Assembly (NCBI GenBank): GCA_021828835.1
Contig: JAJZCY010000010.1
Location: 1 to 37,467, forward strand
DNA: 37,467 bases
Source of the DNA: Acidobacteriota bacterium
GTDB taxonomy: Bacteria; Acidobacteriota; Terriglobia; Terriglobales; Acidobacteriaceae
Reading direction: 5' to 3'
This document shows, one piece after another, positions 9,345 through 27,528 of this stretch (position 1 is its first letter; each line of letters starts with the position of its first letter). Position numbers and translations under genes: made by a program. The notes under the pieces are model-generated. The model saw only the letters and a list, made by a program, of their open reading frames with translations. It was not told the DNA's origin and made no database searches.

Positions 9345-10370
9345 ATGACCGGGTTGATTTCGTTGCTGGCGTCAGAACGACGCAAACTCGCACTCGCCGA
9401 GCTCCTCGCGATCTCGTTCATGGGCTTCATCGCCCTTCTGGCCAGAACCACCGGCGTCAGTCTCTTTCTTTTTCCCGAACTGGCAGCTCTTGCGCACGAC
9501 GTACTTGCGCGTCCGCGAGGGAAATGGGCCAGTCAGCCTCTTCGCTTGATCGCCACTCCGGTGCTGACGGCGACGGCCGGTCTGTTCGTCACCCGGCACC
9601 TGCCCTACGGCGCGCTCTCCCTTCTTCTGATTGTTATCGTCAGCCTGGCAGTGATCCGCTTGCTGCGCTCAGCCATCGGCCCGGCCATCTCCGCCGGGCT
9701 GCTGCCGCTGGTTGTCGGGGAACGCCACTGGCTCTATCCAGCCGCCATCGCAGGCGGCCTGGTCTCTCTCTCAGTCATCCTCTGGCTCTGGAAAAGATGG
9801 GTTCCACACGCAGCGGAAGCGGAGAACAGCGCCGAAGAGTGGTTGATCGATGACACCCTCGAAACCCCTGCCCACGATCGCTTCTGGCTCTTGCACCTGC
9901 TGGGTCTGGTTGCCGTTCTTGGCGTGGCCGGCCAGCTGACGGGACTGCGGTTCCTCCTCTTCCCGCCTCTGGTTGTGATGGCCTATGAGCTCTTTGGCCA
10001 TCCTGAACTGCCCGGTTGGATCGAGCGCCCCGCCTTTTTCCCTCTGGTGTGCTTTCTGACGGCTCTGACCGGCCTGCTCGATCTGCACGCGCTGGGGAAC
10101 ACGATGCTGAGCGTGGTTCTCACCGTGGCTGCCTCCATCGTCCTGCTGCGTCTCTTCCGCATGCACATGCCGCCTGCGCTCGCGGTCGGACTGCTGCCCT
10201 TTGTCAGCCCCTCGCCCACCTTCTGGTATCCCATCTCCGTTGCCATCGGCACGATGGTTCTGAGCGTCTGGTTTGCCCTGCGTTGCCGCGGCAACGGTCC
10301 TTCTCGCCCAGCGCTTCTCCGTGCAATCGGCGCTCGACCGGCTTCGTCCTTGAGAATCCGCGCCTTGTAG
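9345..10370 (+). CDS. HPP-family-like membrane protein with internal duplication
   Basis: A 341-residue polytopic protein of two similar halves. The first half (about 40-165) has LFLFPELAALAHDVLARP, then AIGPAISAGLLPL and HWLYPAAIAGGLVSLSVILWLWKRW. The second (about 205-320) repeats the order with FLLFPPLVVMAYELFGHPELP, MPPALAVGLLPFV and FWYPISVAIGTMVLSVWFAL. The PxxxxGLLP elements resemble the HPP motif of small 4-helix HPP proteins, some of which are plastid or cyanobacterial nitrite transporters. This protein would hold two such bundles fused. The acidic linker (AEAENSAEEWLIDD) lies between them. GGAGG directly precedes the ATG at very short spacing. Convergent with the peptidase. Confidence 0.75.
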   Translation: MTGLISLLASERRKLALAELLAISFMGFIALLARTTGVSLFLFPELAALAHDVLARPRGKWASQPLRLIATPVLTATAGLFVTRHLPYGALSLLLIVIVSLAVIRLLRSAIGPAISAGLLPLVVGERHWLYPAAIAGGLVSLSVILWLWKRWVPHAAEAENSAEEWLIDDTLETPAHDRFWLLHLLGLVAVLGVAGQLTGLRFLLFPPLVVMAYELFGHPELPGWIERPAFFPLVCFLTALTGLLDLHALGNTMLSVVLTVAASIVLLRLFRMHMPPALAVGLLPFVSPSPTFWYPISVAIGTMVLSVWFALRCRGNGPSRPALLRAIGARPASSLRIRAL

Positions 10371-23143: not shown

Positions 23144-23799
23144 GTGGGGCCCTCCTGCGCCGCGCTTGTCTTTGGCGTTTGGTCCTGTGGACGAGCGGAT
23201 GGATCGCACCGGTTTTCGGTCCAGGTGCAAAGTAGATTGCTCTGCCTCGACTGCCTGGCCGGGCCGCAGTACGGTCGACTTTACAAGCGCCGGCTCCCTC
23301 GCCACGAGGCCATGCACTCGCTCCTCAGCATCCTGTCGCAACGCGGCAGGGGGTGTAGCAAACCATCCAGCAGATCGCGGCGCTTCTCTTCCCAGCTCAA
23401 CTGGACCACCTCGTAGTCTTTGGTGTGCAACATGGACGCCAGGTGTCGGGGGTGTAGTGCTCATAATCGAGCTACTTCTTCACATCCACACCCCGGGTGT
23501 GTTCCAGCTCCCGGAGGAGCTGGTGCAGCATAGCAAGATCCACCGCGCCGTCGGCTTCTAGCTTGCCCTGCTGAAGGACATTTTCATGCGCAATCTCATG
23601 GCCTTTATGCAGCCGCACTGCACGAAGACGGGGTGGATGCCCAGAGTGCCAGCGCACTCCCATCCCAAGGACGACATAACTTCCAGGGCAGATTCTTTCG
23701 CGGCACACCACCCGTTGCAGCAATACTATTGACTGCAATAATGGCTTGGAAATGTCCATTATTCCGGCGCCCACGTTAGAAATCGAACCTGACTTGCGA
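23144..23799. other. Unassigned region with possible remnant minus-strand ORF
   Basis: A 656-base stretch with no confident gene. A 100-codon open frame on the minus strand (23472-23774) ends in an Asp/Leu/Glu-rich sequence (GAVDLAMLHQLLRELEHTRG) that looks protein-like but was not recognised. A second short minus-strand frame (about 23280-23430) includes QLSWEEKRRDLLDGLLHP, also protein-like. Stops and frame changes separate them, so this may be a decayed gene. An 8-bp perfect hairpin (CCAGCTCC/GGAGCTGG, 23504-23523) lies inside it. Confidence 0.35.
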
Positions 23800-23955
23800 T
23801 TAAGAAAGTAAGGTTAAGGCGTCGCTCGTCGGGACTGTGGCACCACTCTCGGTTTCGCGAACCTCAAGCACTTCGATCGTTGGCGTCTCGCACCGCTGCT
23901 GCACCTGCGCAGGGGCGCCGGCGTTCGGTTCACTCAAAGACTCTTGGGGATTCAT
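23800..23955 (-). CDS. Candidate lasso-peptide precursor
   Basis: A 51-residue ORF, 84 bases downstream of the B2-like gene on the same strand. GGAGG precedes ATG 23955 at short spacing; a longer upstream frame is possible. The leader contains C22-E-T-P25-T-I27, close to the YxxPxL motif recognised by lasso B1/RRE proteins, with Cys for Tyr and without the usual Gly. D45 is the only acidic residue after E36. Counting to D45, ring closure could be A39 (position 7), G38 (position 8) or S37 (position 9), all within the 7-9 range of lasso rings. T35 at -2 favours S37; motif spacing from the leader favours A39; Gly is the commonest first residue. The C-terminal Ser51 resembles sites phosphorylated by lasso HPr-like kinases. 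Other small peptides remain possible. Confidence 0.55.
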   Translation of the reverse strand: MNPQESLSEPNAGAPAQVQQRCETPTIEVLEVRETESGATVPTSDALTLLS

Positions 23956-24039: not shown

Positions 24040-25176
24040 TTACCGAGCAAAATGGCCGATCTCGACGCATCGGTGTGCTTCTGGGTAACCAGTCACCTCG
24101 ACGCCACTCGCATCCAGCCATGCATGAGTCCGAAGCTGGGCGCTGCCAGAATCGCGCGAGGCGCCGAAGTGTAGACGCGCCGCGATGTTTCGCCTATGCA
24201 GCATGTGCCACGCCGCAAGCGCGCGCGGGAAGCAAACCACCGACACCGGCAACGCGCGAGCTGCTCGGTCGATTGCCCACGAAATTTCGCGCGCAGCAAA
24301 TTCCCCGTTCGGCCTATCTTGCGCCGGGCCAGGCGGCCGTAGCGTGCCAAGAAGACGGGCAATCCGCGGAAAGGGAAGTACACGAATGACGCATTCGGCG
24401 ATCAGGAGCCAGAACACTGCCTCCATCAGCAGCAGCTGCCGGCTGCGATGGAGAGATCGGAATTTAGACCACCTGCTAAGAATCGATCTCAATCGCATCT
24501 TGTGTGACCAGCTTCTCCAGGAACGCAAGAACCTCGGCGCGGATACTTGCAGGGCTGCCGAGCCGGCGAAGTACGATGCTTCCATGTCCATTGCAGAGAC
24601 GAGCGCAGGACGATATGCATTGCGCCTCAGTTCTCTCATGCCTTCCAGCGTTCGCAGTCGCCGAATGGAATCAGGCTCATCCGGCAAGGCGTCATGTATC
24701 AGATATACTGCGCCCACAGTTTGCGCGGCAAGTCGGTTTCCCGGCGGAGCAACGAAGTACTTGTCCAGATCGCTGCGCACAGCTCTCTGGGCCGCCGTTC
24801 TCCACTCCAGGAAGTCCAGCGAATTGGACCACAACTTGAGCATGCGTCCGTCCGGCCGCACCACATAGCGATCATCCGCCGAGAGCTTCAGATTGCAAAT
24901 GTCATCGCTGATCAGGCCATATCCCCGTCGGCACAGAAGCGCTGCAAGCGTGGATTTTCCCGCTCCCGACGCGCCGCAGAACAGCACTGCGCGTCCACCC
25001 ACTGAAATTGCGCTGGCATGGAGCACAAGTTCACCGCGCTGCTGCAAGAGGATGGCAAAGCAGGTTCCCACGAGGTAGAGGGCGATCGTGTGCAACTCGC
25101 ACCCAGAAATCGGCTTAAACAAGATACGCCGGCCTTCGCTGATCAGGAAATCCGCCACTTCCGGAACCCGCAGCAA
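24040..25176 (-). CDS. HPr-kinase-like domain fused to lasso-peptide B2 leader protease
   Basis: A 378-codon frame with two modules. Residues 1-205 are HPr-kinase-like: LVLHASAISVGG (50-61), P-loop GASGAGKS (68-75) and LISDD (88-92). Residues 227-378 are lasso B2 (transglutaminase-like cysteine protease): C315 in SVVCFPRALAAWHML, H351 and D355 in THAWLDASG, the expected triad. B2's own start would be M227 (ATG 24498). B2 removes the leader before macrolactam closure, and lasso kinases phosphorylate a C-terminal Ser. The kinase's missing N-terminus lies in another frame upstream (25175-25495), separated by one extra base in an A6 run (25175-25180). The TTG at 25176 is therefore unlikely to be the true start. 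The junction at residues about 205-227 contains a B1 remnant in another frame, suggesting a deletion. Confidence 0.85.
   Translation of the reverse strand: MLRVPEVADFLISEGRRILFKPISGCELHTIALYLVGTCFAILLQQRGELVLHASAISVGGRAVLFCGASGAGKSTLAALLCRRGYGLISDDICNLKLSADDRYVVRPDGRMLKLWSNSLDFLEWRTAAQRAVRSDLDKYFVAPPGNRLAAQTVGAVYLIHDALPDEPDSIRRLRTLEGMRELRRNAYRPALVSAMDMEASYFAGSAALQVSAPRFLRSWRSWSHKMRLRSILSRWSKFRSLHRSRQLLLMEAVFWLLIAECVIRVLPFPRIARLLGTLRPPGPAQDRPNGEFAAREISWAIDRAARALPVSVVCFPRALAAWHMLHRRNIAARLHFGASRDSGSAQLRTHAWLDASGVEVTGYPEAHRCVEIGHFAR
24476..24538 (-). pseudogene. Remnant of lasso B1 (PqqD/RRE-like) protein C-terminus
   Basis: In the frame shifted by one from the kinase-B2 fusion, the minus strand encodes AEVLAFLEKLVTQDAIEIDS and then TAG (24476-24478). 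This resembles the last helix of PqqD-like leader-binding proteins (DVLxFLxxLxxxGLI). It overlaps the natural B2 start (24498) by 23 bases, as B1 and B2 genes often do. The rest of an approximately 85-residue B1 is absent: upstream in this frame the sequence is already kinase coding. The fragment is short, so the resemblance is suggestive, not conclusive. Confidence 0.5.
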
Positions 25177-25495
25177 AAAATTCCCCGCGCCTTGCCTCCC
25201 ATGCGGCGGTCGAATGCCGTGGGTCGCACAGGTGCACGGGCACTTCGCCCGCCACGATGGTCACGTCGGGGATATCGTACGGTGCCGCTGCCTCCACGGC
25301 GGAGGGCAACTCGAGAGCCGAGTCAACCAGCAGTCCTGAGATGACATATCGTCGCGCACAGGAGTTTGGTTCTACCGCATGGGGTGCGGACGGCCGCACA
25401 GTAGGATCTTTTGCAGGGCCTCGCCGAGCGAGGACCGATGCTGAATTGCCTCTCGCACGGAGAGATCCCTGGACTTCGCTATGGCCGCTATCCAA
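25175..25495 (-). pseudogene. N-terminal part of the HPr-kinase-like gene, frameshifted
   Basis: The minus-strand frame contains RRYVISGLLVDSALELPSA (from about 25351), then PDVTIVAGEVPVHL and WEARRGEFF, the usual opening of lasso-associated HPr-kinase proteins. At the T6 run (plus-strand A6, 25175-25180) the frame leaves the kinase. Dropping one T joins GEF to LLRVPEVADFLISEG in the downstream frame, giving a continuous family-like sequence. A TTG at 25495 follows AGGGAG and could be the start, though the first ~45 residues are not family-like. The frameshift may be real, a sequencing error, or slippage. Confidence 0.65.
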
Positions 25496-26259
25496 GTTTC
25501 TCCCTTTTCACTGTTCGTTGACCGCGAAAATGCCGTTCCAGCAGATGCAGAATCGCAGCGTCAGGAAAGGCTGTCAATTCGGAGAGCCTTGGTTGCCGCC
25601 GATCCGGAAGGCGCAGGGAGTTCGGCGCGCGTTGTGAACCGCATGACGAACAAGCAAGCGAATGAACGACAGTGTAATTTGCCATCGCCGGCCGGTGGCC
25701 CGCATTCCCCAATTTGGATTATGTTGAGCTTTCTCCAGGGGAAACGCGCCCCTTCGCACAGTGATTATACTGCGGAAAGAAGACGAAGACGGTGAAGATG
25801 CCGTAGAAGGTCTCCGCGCTTGAGTCCCGGCAGGAGGCGGTGCGCTTGATGGAATTGGGGCAGAGCGTTTCCGAAGCTTGGAATAGTGGAATAGACGTTG
25901 GCGAGCTGAGTGACGGCGCAGCGGGCCGGTAAGCTGGGCTGCTCTGGCCGGAACGCGGAATTGGCGGCTGGCCATATGGAGACCCTGCGTCTGCATGTGG
26001 AGTTGGCGCAGCTAACGATCAAGCCTCAGATCTTGGGAAATGACACACCATACTGCTCCGTGCGTTGGCACGAGTTCACCGCGCTGGCCGGTGCCCTGGC
26101 AATTCCTGGATGGTCAATACCTGTTGCATAAAGTGCGCTTAAGTCAACCGCCCGCTGCGGCGCTCAATCCCAAAGCAGAACCCATCCGTTCGTCTCCATT
26201 CTCAGGCTTGACTTTACCACTTTCGCCGATCACCCTCTTTACGTTCAAATGGAAAGATC
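25496..26259. other. Intergenic region between divergent lasso-locus genes
   Basis: A 764-base gap between the kinase start region and the nucleotidyltransferase. Several 70-140-codon open frames exist on the minus strand but overlap each other and are low in family-like features. It is the place where a lost gene, such as a macrolactam synthetase, could once have been; no recognisable ATP-binding SGGxDS motif was found. A TTGACT at about 26204 could be a -35 for the plus-strand gene, without a clear -10. Confidence 0.4.
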
Positions 26260-27528
26260 ATGTCCGTGAGAAGACCTTTCATCGCTGGACCCACACCAGC
26301 TCAATTCTGGCTGCAGGAATGCAGCTCTGCATTTCGCTTATTGATCGCTACATCGTGGTTGGCGCCGGACTCGTGGCGTGCGCATCAGGAAGACGCGATT
26401 CGCCAAGCAGTCGCCGGCGGCCCCGACTGGCAGGAGTATCTCGCGCTGGTTGATCGGCATCGCACGCCGGCGCTGAGTTGGGCCGCTCTCACACGCACGC
26501 CGGGCATCAATGTTCCCGCTGCCGTGCGAGGAGAATTGCAGAGGCGCGACCGAGCCTGCCGCCTGGCGGCGCTTCACCGCACCACGGCGCTGGCGGAGGT
26601 GATTCGCAATTTCAACCGCGCGGAGATTCCGGTCATCCCGCTCAAAGGGCCACTGCTTTCGCTCGAGCTTTATGGAGATACGGGAATTCGGCAGTCCTGG
26701 GACTTGGATGTGCTGGTGACCGAGGAGGATTACCCTAGAGCAACCAAGCGCCTCGAAGACATGGGCTGGCGTACGATCGAGTCTGACCGCTTCCTATCCT
26801 TTTTGACTCCTCAACAGAGCGCAGCAGTTTGGCAGCATGCGCATCACGTTGGCTACGTACATCCACGCAATGGCTTCCTGGAGCTCCACTGGAGCATCCT
26901 TTCTCATCAGCCTGAGCAAACTGCCGGCTGCTGGGCCAGAAGCGTTCATTCAACTTGGTCGGGAGCCACCTTCCGGCGCATGGACTCAATCGACCAAACG
27001 CTCTACCTCTGCGAGCACGGTAGTGAGCACGCATGGTTCCGGGCCAAGTGGCTGGGAGATCTAGCGCGGCTATACGCCATCGAGTACGTGGATTGGAATG
27101 CTGCCGATGCTCGCACCCGAGCGGCAATTCAAGAGCGGCCCCTGCTGTTAGCTCTGCGCTTGCTAAACGAGGTGTATGCTCTTCCTTTGCCTTTCTACGA
27201 CTCAGAGCCGATTGCCAATTTGCCCCCCCTTCTCATCAGACATACGACTCGCCGGCTGCAGCGATTCAAGGAAACGGCCATGGTTCCCTCATTTTCCTTC
27301 CTCTGGAAAAAGCTGTGCGAAATCCGATTCGATCGCGCGCTCAGACCGCACAAAACTTGGCGTCAAAGTCTCAGGGAAGCCACTTACCGTGCGGATGATT
27401 TCGCTTTGGTTCGACTTCCCGACAAATTCTTCTGGGCCTATGCCCCGCTGCGCCCGTTTCTGTGGATTGTGCGGGTGTTACGGCGCTTTTCACCCCATCT
27501 GGGGGATTCAAAGCAGCCCTCTGCTTGA
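26260..27528 (+). CDS. Nucleotidyltransferase-family protein (PF14907-like)
   Basis: A 422-residue cytoplasmic protein. The nucleotidyltransferase signature is IPVIPLKGPLLSLELYGDTGIRQSWDLDVLV (about 123-153), where D148 and D150 are the likely metal-binding pair and K129-G130 lies in the glycine-containing loop. The later half (LTPQQSAAVWQHAHHVGYVHPRNGFLELHWSI onward) is typical of this uncharacterised family. Members recur in lasso-peptide clusters, some with kinases that add phosphate groups to the peptide. Here it is divergent from the kinase/B2 gene. ATG 26260 follows GGAAAG. It ends near a hairpin (27613-27629). Confidence 0.85.
   Translation: MSVRRPFIAGPTPAQFWLQECSSAFRLLIATSWLAPDSWRAHQEDAIRQAVAGGPDWQEYLALVDRHRTPALSWAALTRTPGINVPAAVRGELQRRDRACRLAALHRTTALAEVIRNFNRAEIPVIPLKGPLLSLELYGDTGIRQSWDLDVLVTEEDYPRATKRLEDMGWRTIESDRFLSFLTPQQSAAVWQHAHHVGYVHPRNGFLELHWSILSHQPEQTAGCWARSVHSTWSGATFRRMDSIDQTLYLCEHGSEHAWFRAKWLGDLARLYAIEYVDWNAADARTRAAIQERPLLLALRLLNEVYALPLPFYDSEPIANLPPLLIRHTTRRLQRFKETAMVPSFSFLWKKLCEIRFDRALRPHKTWRQSLREATYRADDFALVRLPDKFFWAYAPLRPFLWIVRVLRRFSPHLGDSKQPSA

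Follow-up and report, generated by a model that had tools for sequence, protein, structure and literature searches.

The window is the whole stretch of DNA analysed, 37,467 nucleotides long, and coordinates without a locus name refer to it. Its lasso-related genes and remnants are given below, with L038 denoting the orthologous locus used for comparison.

23613..23774 (-): lasso cyclase stub of 58 codons (L038 numbering), interrupted near 23746 by a 13-bp gap
23800..23955 (-): lasso precursor gene (A), ATG-initiated, 51 codons, MNPQESLSEPNAGAPAQVQQRCETPTIEVLEVRETESGATVPTSDALTLLS; predicted leader, residues 1-36; predicted core, S37-S51 (SGATVPTSDALTLLS); Cys22 opposite the Trp of L038
24040..24498 (-): B2 leader peptidase with an own ATG and an open frame, 98% amino acid identity to the B2 of L038
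24537..24545 (-): junction of a 321-bp deletion, with short CGCG homology at the deletion ends
24543..25174 (-): fragment of an HprK-like kinase, carrying a P-loop (GASGAGKS) and an SDD motif
25175..25180 (-): frameshift in a T run, six T against five in L038
25181..25495 (-): N-terminal part of the kinase, out of frame; phmmer pairs it, in another reading frame, with the L038 kinase ORF
26260..27528 (+): divergent nucleotidyltransferase (NTP_transf_5), open; PF14907 E 4.6e-51; 98% amino acid identity to L038

The precursor ORF begins 84 bp downstream of the stop codon of the frame that ends in the B2 domain. It was found where the original prediction had placed it, as a 51-residue ORF adjoining a B2-type peptidase, and the two features claimed for its core are present: D45 is the sole acidic residue after E36, and the C-terminal residue is Ser. 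With a start at S37 the ORF has a leader motif, in which the aromatic position is taken by Cys, a Thr at -2 and an acid within core positions 7-9. No NCBIfam model matched above its cut-off. NF033524, the model for paeninodin-family precursors, scored 18 bits (E 0.0017) against the ORF and 22 bits (E 1e-4) against its L038 orthologue, both under the cut-off of 27. Of 100 simulated windows (first-order Markov, start codon not demanded), 21 contained a comparable loose motif one or more times. The motif alone therefore lies within chance, and it is the context, namely the sub-cut-off NF033524 match and an indel-free orthologue in a complete cluster, that lifts the ORF above it.

The B2 leader peptidase was matched by PF13471 (Transglut_core3, E 1.3e-19) and by NF033537 (lasso_biosyn_B2, 75.8 bits, E 4e-21, cut-off 33). 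The kinase fragment scored 34.7 bits with PF07475 (cut-off 33.3) and 46.1 bits with TIGR04352, under its cut-off of 200; the L038 orthologue runs 30 residues beyond the fragment. The nucleotidyltransferase at 26260..27528 is of the kind found alongside phosphorylated lasso clusters. Part of the interval between kinase and nucleotidyltransferase (25724-26046) matched a member of the genus, G350, at 72% over ∼320 bp.

Scanning the kinase-B2 protein against genome contigs gave one distinct locus, L038, on contig DAIDLI010000122.1 of an Acidobacteriaceae bacterium MAG. It is collinear with the window over ∼15 kb and contains the following genes.

L038 ORF 7467-8729: HprK-like kinase
L038 from 8747: PqqD/B1, above the Pfam cut-off
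L038 ending at 9458: B2, above the Pfam cut-off
L038 9543-9698: precursor
L038 9724-11628: Asn-synthase-like cyclase, 634 residues

Precursor, B1, B2 and cyclase are thus all present and open, and the divergent nucleotidyltransferase lies on the other side of the cluster. The cyclase scored 101 bits with PF00733 (cut-off 21) and 206.8 bits with NF033535, under the cut-off of 525, and the kinase scored under the cut-offs of both PF07475 and TIGR04352. The L038 precursor is the in-frame orthologue of the window ORF, with 82% amino acid identity and 20 substitutions over 51 codons, and no indels. Assignment of the ORF to the lasso precursors was therefore right by descent, its orthologue sitting in a complete lasso cluster. 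The comparison of homologous loci that the original prediction had proposed, with another precursor at this position or loss of the frame as contrary outcomes, left it standing: frame, D45 and C-terminal Ser are kept in the single orthologous locus found. When 80 genomes of the genus were searched, L038 came back as G335 and no second orthologous locus was seen; apart from it, window DNA had only short-stretch matches, in 5 genomes.

Lesions in the window were mapped by blastn segments and alignment to L038, and indels were itemised one by one for 23.7-26.3 kb. Lost with the 321-bp deletion are the final 30 residues of the kinase and 70 of the 95 PqqD codons, and the kinase frame now runs in frame into B2. 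The extra T separates the N-terminal part of the kinase from the P-loop part. A 1957-bp deletion ending at 23613 took the rest of the cyclase gene, and the 13-bp gap shifts the frame inside the stub that remains. These lesions all fall within cluster genes, and the three flanking genes compared (nucleotidyltransferase, GntR-type regulator and glycosidase) stay in frame. Close to the start of the kinase, or upstream of it, there are two more small gaps, of 1 base at 25504 and 11 bases at 26088. The window consequently retains the B2 domain that had been predicted next to the precursor, but with its frame fused to the kinase fragment, without a B1/PqqD-type RRE and with nothing of an Asn-synthase-like cyclase beyond the interrupted stub. 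Remnants of both PqqD and cyclase are still present as stubs, and because these gene ends were left behind, we infer that the direction was loss in the window and not gain in L038.

Divergence from L038 is uneven along the locus. Values of dS were 0.05-0.07 for the kinase fragment, B2 and nucleotidyltransferase, 0.21 for the precursor and 0.32 for the glycosidase beyond the cyclase scar. Nucleotide identity was 87% in the precursor segment against ∼98% in B2; in 50-base steps it was 96-100% across B2 but 82-92% over the precursor and as far as the cyclase stub, the change lying near window position 24040 (L038 9458). This pattern suggests a recombination boundary near 24040, in which case the history of the locus would be less simple. 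The dN/dS ratio was 0.17 for B2 and 0.21 for the kinase fragment, which therefore still look conserved, so that the loss was recent or the remainder has been retained. For the precursor (dN 0.12, dN/dS 0.57) the ratio, drawn from only 20 substitutions, is compatible with relaxed selection as well as with ordinary core variation.

At the leader position in question the window has TGC (Cys) and L038 has TGG (Trp). Leader motifs were surveyed in 48 distinct lasso-related loci (L038-L078, L080 and L109-L114; L115 repeats L038) by looking for small ORFs with an aromatic-xxP pattern near lasso genes, a search that other kinds of precursor would escape. We judged 24 of these loci to have a Trp-leader precursor and 6 a Tyr-leader precursor, and in 18 none was recognised. 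The precursors assigned to L046, L047 and L080, whose cyclases are the most similar after L038 (577-615 bits), have a leader Trp. A 23-row precursor alignment was assembled from 22 Trp precursors and the window ORF with its Cys; since rows were chosen by the aromatic-xxP pattern, its Trp column proves nothing by itself, and the independent evidence is the narrower observation on L046, L047 and L080. Partial text of PMC13381572 describes the Trp as almost invariant among the paeninodin-like precursors of Bacillota and as the main determinant of RRE (B1) binding, and a Trp/Val double-Ala variant lost RRE binding (PMC12710340, partial text). The CxxP leader is most likely the product of decay. 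What the original prediction had read as a variant motif is a difference from the Trp of L038, and the missing Gly, which it had called atypical, is usual: most of the related Trp-leader precursors lack the Gly of the classical motif.

Two further kinds of small ORF were observed in the survey. Tyr-leader precursors form a second class in the same family (L064, L067, L070, L072, L074 and L076); five of the six have YxxP followed by YG, and one of the six ends in Ser. The small ORF at L042 4821-4997 has a Trp leader and a C-terminal Ser, is without Asp or Glu at core positions 7-9, and adjoins weak cyclase-like frames and a kinase.

C-terminal Ser was counted by a script that took ORFs fitting a leader pattern within 700 bp of lasso genes and ignored the last residue in the choice. 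Ser was terminal in 19/31 Trp-pattern ORFs near lasso genes and in 9/35 farther off, both sets including chance frames and the far set also including candidates taken as genuine (L051, L054). Near lasso genes the counts for the other leader patterns were 1/11 for Tyr and 3/21 for Phe. The precursor alignment, which was curated with the whole sequence in view, has Ser at the end of 20 of its 23 rows. In paeninodin-like systems the C-terminal Ser is the phosphorylation site (PMC9266682, partial text). L038 combines this Ser with an HprK-like kinase, and the window has the Ser with a broken kinase; the presence of kinases in the surveyed loci is partly built in, as loci were fetched by kinase-B2 or cyclase queries. 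At E <= 1, NF033524 matched five of the 23 alignment rows, the window row included. In 300 family genomes the same profile, of only 30 positions, gave no match, and the controls gave none either, which makes this negative uninformative.

Counted from the leader Trp or Cys, the first usable acid in the 23 rows stood 21 residues away in one (L060), 22 in five, 23 in ten, 24 in six and 25 in one (L071). With a core start at +15, distances of 21, 22 and 23 give rings of 7, 8 and 9, window and L038 belonging to the last group. A distance of 24 gives ring 9 only with a start at +16, and that of L071 fits neither start, reading as ring 10 from +16. The residue at -2 for the +15 start is Thr in 5/23 rows (window, L038, L047, L073 and L080) and Ala in most others of the register. 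The original prediction had left three ring options. S37 is now favoured, because T35 then stands at -2 and the acid distance in 16/23 precursors gives ring 7-9 for the same start; the predicted product would be a 15-residue core (SGATVPTSDALTLLS) with a ring of 9 (S37-D45) and a tail of six. Ring 7 from A39 and ring 8 from G38 were ranked below it as less probable options. The predicted core of L038 is SGVSVPSSDALTLLS. It differs from that of the window at three residues (A/V, T/S and T/S), yet the two are exact isomers, with a computed monoisotopic mass of 1413.7351 Da for the cyclised core and 1493.701 Da with one phosphate.

Replacement enzymes were sought in the source assembly, a draft MAG of 334 contigs that is 87.6% complete. 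The L038 cyclase as query (E <= 0.001) matched only the window's own stub, over residues 14-59 of 634 at 87% identity. None of the 5 Asn_synthase-family matches in the assembly reads as a lasso cyclase; by sequence they look like asparagine synthase, MnmA, NAD synthase, LarE and QueC. PF05402 (PqqD) had a single match, of 31 bits on another contig, which adjoins no B2 or lasso cyclase, as the genome search found neither there. The B2 search of the assembly gave no copy besides that of the window. Given the completeness of the assembly, this absence of a cyclase elsewhere is strong but not final.

Lasso genes were seen in a different arrangement in another genus of the family, where five genomes (G231, G295, G031, G240 and G263) have B2 loci (L039-L041, L043 and L045) apart from loci L044, L051 and L126-L128. 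B2 is present in one copy in four of the five genomes and in two copies in G031. PqqD was recognised beside B2 in four of the five (not L041) and a kinase in three. No precursor or cyclase was recognised near B2 in these genomes, the cyclases lying elsewhere; on one contig of G295, B2 is at 4.06 Mb, one cyclase at 1.25 Mb (locus L051, where a precursor and a kinase are present without B2) and another at 2.27 Mb. These positions suggest a split lasso pathway with a shared B2. The idea is only partly supported, since leader-motif patterns recognised no precursor near the distant cyclases of L126-L128.

We consider it highly probable that a paeninodin-like lasso cluster, kinase-associated and with a Trp leader in its intact form, has decayed in the source genome as represented by the draft MAG, and that the ORF is its precursor gene. 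In L038, PqqD/B1 would bind the WxxPxI leader motif and the HprK-like kinase would phosphorylate the C-terminal Ser. B2 would cut after E36, two residues past T35, and the cyclase would close a ring of 9 by bonding the S37 amino group to the D45 side chain; the nucleotidyltransferase may make additional changes to the phosphate. B1, the cyclase and the complete kinase would have been lost from the window through two deletions and two frameshifts, and the Trp expected to contact B1 would have been replaced by Cys. A threaded lasso product from the source genome, as the original prediction had envisaged, is very unlikely, because these enzymes are gone and B2 and precursor are relics: compared with L038, the window has lost its cyclase and PqqD to deletion and its kinase is disrupted, and the assembly yielded no replacement cyclase.

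An improbable but still arguable alternative is that the deletions and frameshifts are assembly artefacts and that the organism has a complete L038-like cluster and makes the lasso peptide. The fragmented and incomplete draft assembly, the frameshift in a homopolymer and the short homologies at the deletion ends are all compatible with this. Several separate lesions nevertheless fall in cluster genes while the three flanking genes are open, the Trp-to-Cys difference is no typical assembly error, and no second cyclase copy or B2 was found on another contig, where the lone PqqD-family match reaches only 31 bits. That lasso enzymes from other loci in the genome process the precursor in trans we regard as very improbable. 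Lasso genes do seem split between distant loci in the other genus, B2 is preserved, and 12% of the genome is missing from the assembly; against this, the cyclase query finds the stub only, the PqqD-family match elsewhere is without a neighbouring B2 or lasso cyclase, and the leader Trp is lost.

There is next to no likelihood that the kinase-B2 fusion and the precursor form a linear phosphorylated-peptide system without a cyclase, like the LPPs of Bacilli. LPP clusters combine a kinase and a nucleotidyltransferase with no cyclase (PMC13381572, partial text), and the kinase fragment, with its P-loop preserved, continues in frame into B2, but LPP clusters retain a discrete RRE and a signal peptidase, whereas the window PqqD is mostly deleted and its kinase is without both ends. 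That the ORF is a chance reading frame is scarcely credible despite the motif frequency in simulated windows and the lack of an NCBIfam match above cut-off, as it has an indel-free in-frame orthologue in a complete lasso cluster and Trp-leader candidates adjoin lasso genes in many related loci.

Decay of a paeninodin-like cluster remains the preferred reading, and on it an effort to find the peptide in the source organism would probably fail; the sibling locus L038 is the complete target. A wider proposal seems to us evenly poised: that Acidobacteriaceae own a large paeninodin-like lasso branch (Trp leader, C-terminal Ser, HprK-like kinase), with some predicted cores of only 13-15 residues and, in one genus or more, a B2 gene remote from the precursor and cyclase genes, and that the window represents a naturally arisen loss-of-function allele, its complete sibling having a predicted core that is isomeric and of equal mass. 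A Trp-leader, C-terminal-Ser, kinase-linked class recurs in this family, which PMC13381572, a paper on Trp/Tyr leader discrimination, places outside the paeninodins; its available text confines these to Bacillota. The occurrence of lasso clusters in Acidobacteria is not in itself new: lasso precursors with Ile/Val at -2 have been described from Acidobacteriaceae among other hosts (Duan et al., 2023; PMC10368454, partial text), and Acidobacteria lasso clusters have been reported from soil metagenomes (PMC9064862, partial text). Literature joining lasso peptides, Acidobacteria and HprK was not found in our searches, nor was anything that looked relevant on deletion-bearing pseudogene lasso clusters.

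L038 resembles the paeninodin/pseudomycoidin type (NF033524) in its Trp-leader motif, Thr at -2, Asp ring acceptor and C-terminal Ser, and in its HprK-like kinase, split B1/B2 and nucleotidyltransferase. It differs in host, Acidobacteriota against Bacillota, in a precursor that falls under the family cut-off, and in gene order, K-B1-B2-A-C against the firmicute C-A-K-B1-B2-D (PMC5067487, partial text). No transporter gene was noticed in the frames read between regulator and glycosidase. The window departs further from this type in that its cluster is broken. Both loci share kinase-associated lasso precursors with the Bradymonadales and Acidobacteriaceae clusters of PMC10368454 (partial text), which names the same family; those clusters have Ile/Val at -2, whereas window and L038 have Thr. 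Bradymonadales precursors there carry a YxxPxL leader, and phosphorylation of BsfA falls on ring Ser3, in contrast to the Trp leader and C-terminal Ser of L038. The linear polyphosphorylated peptides (LPPs) of PMC13381572 (partial text) are similar in their HprK-like kinase, nucleotidyltransferase and aromatic-xxP leader. Their core genes include no cyclase and a signal peptidase is used, whereas the stub left behind in the window indicates that its cluster once had a cyclase.
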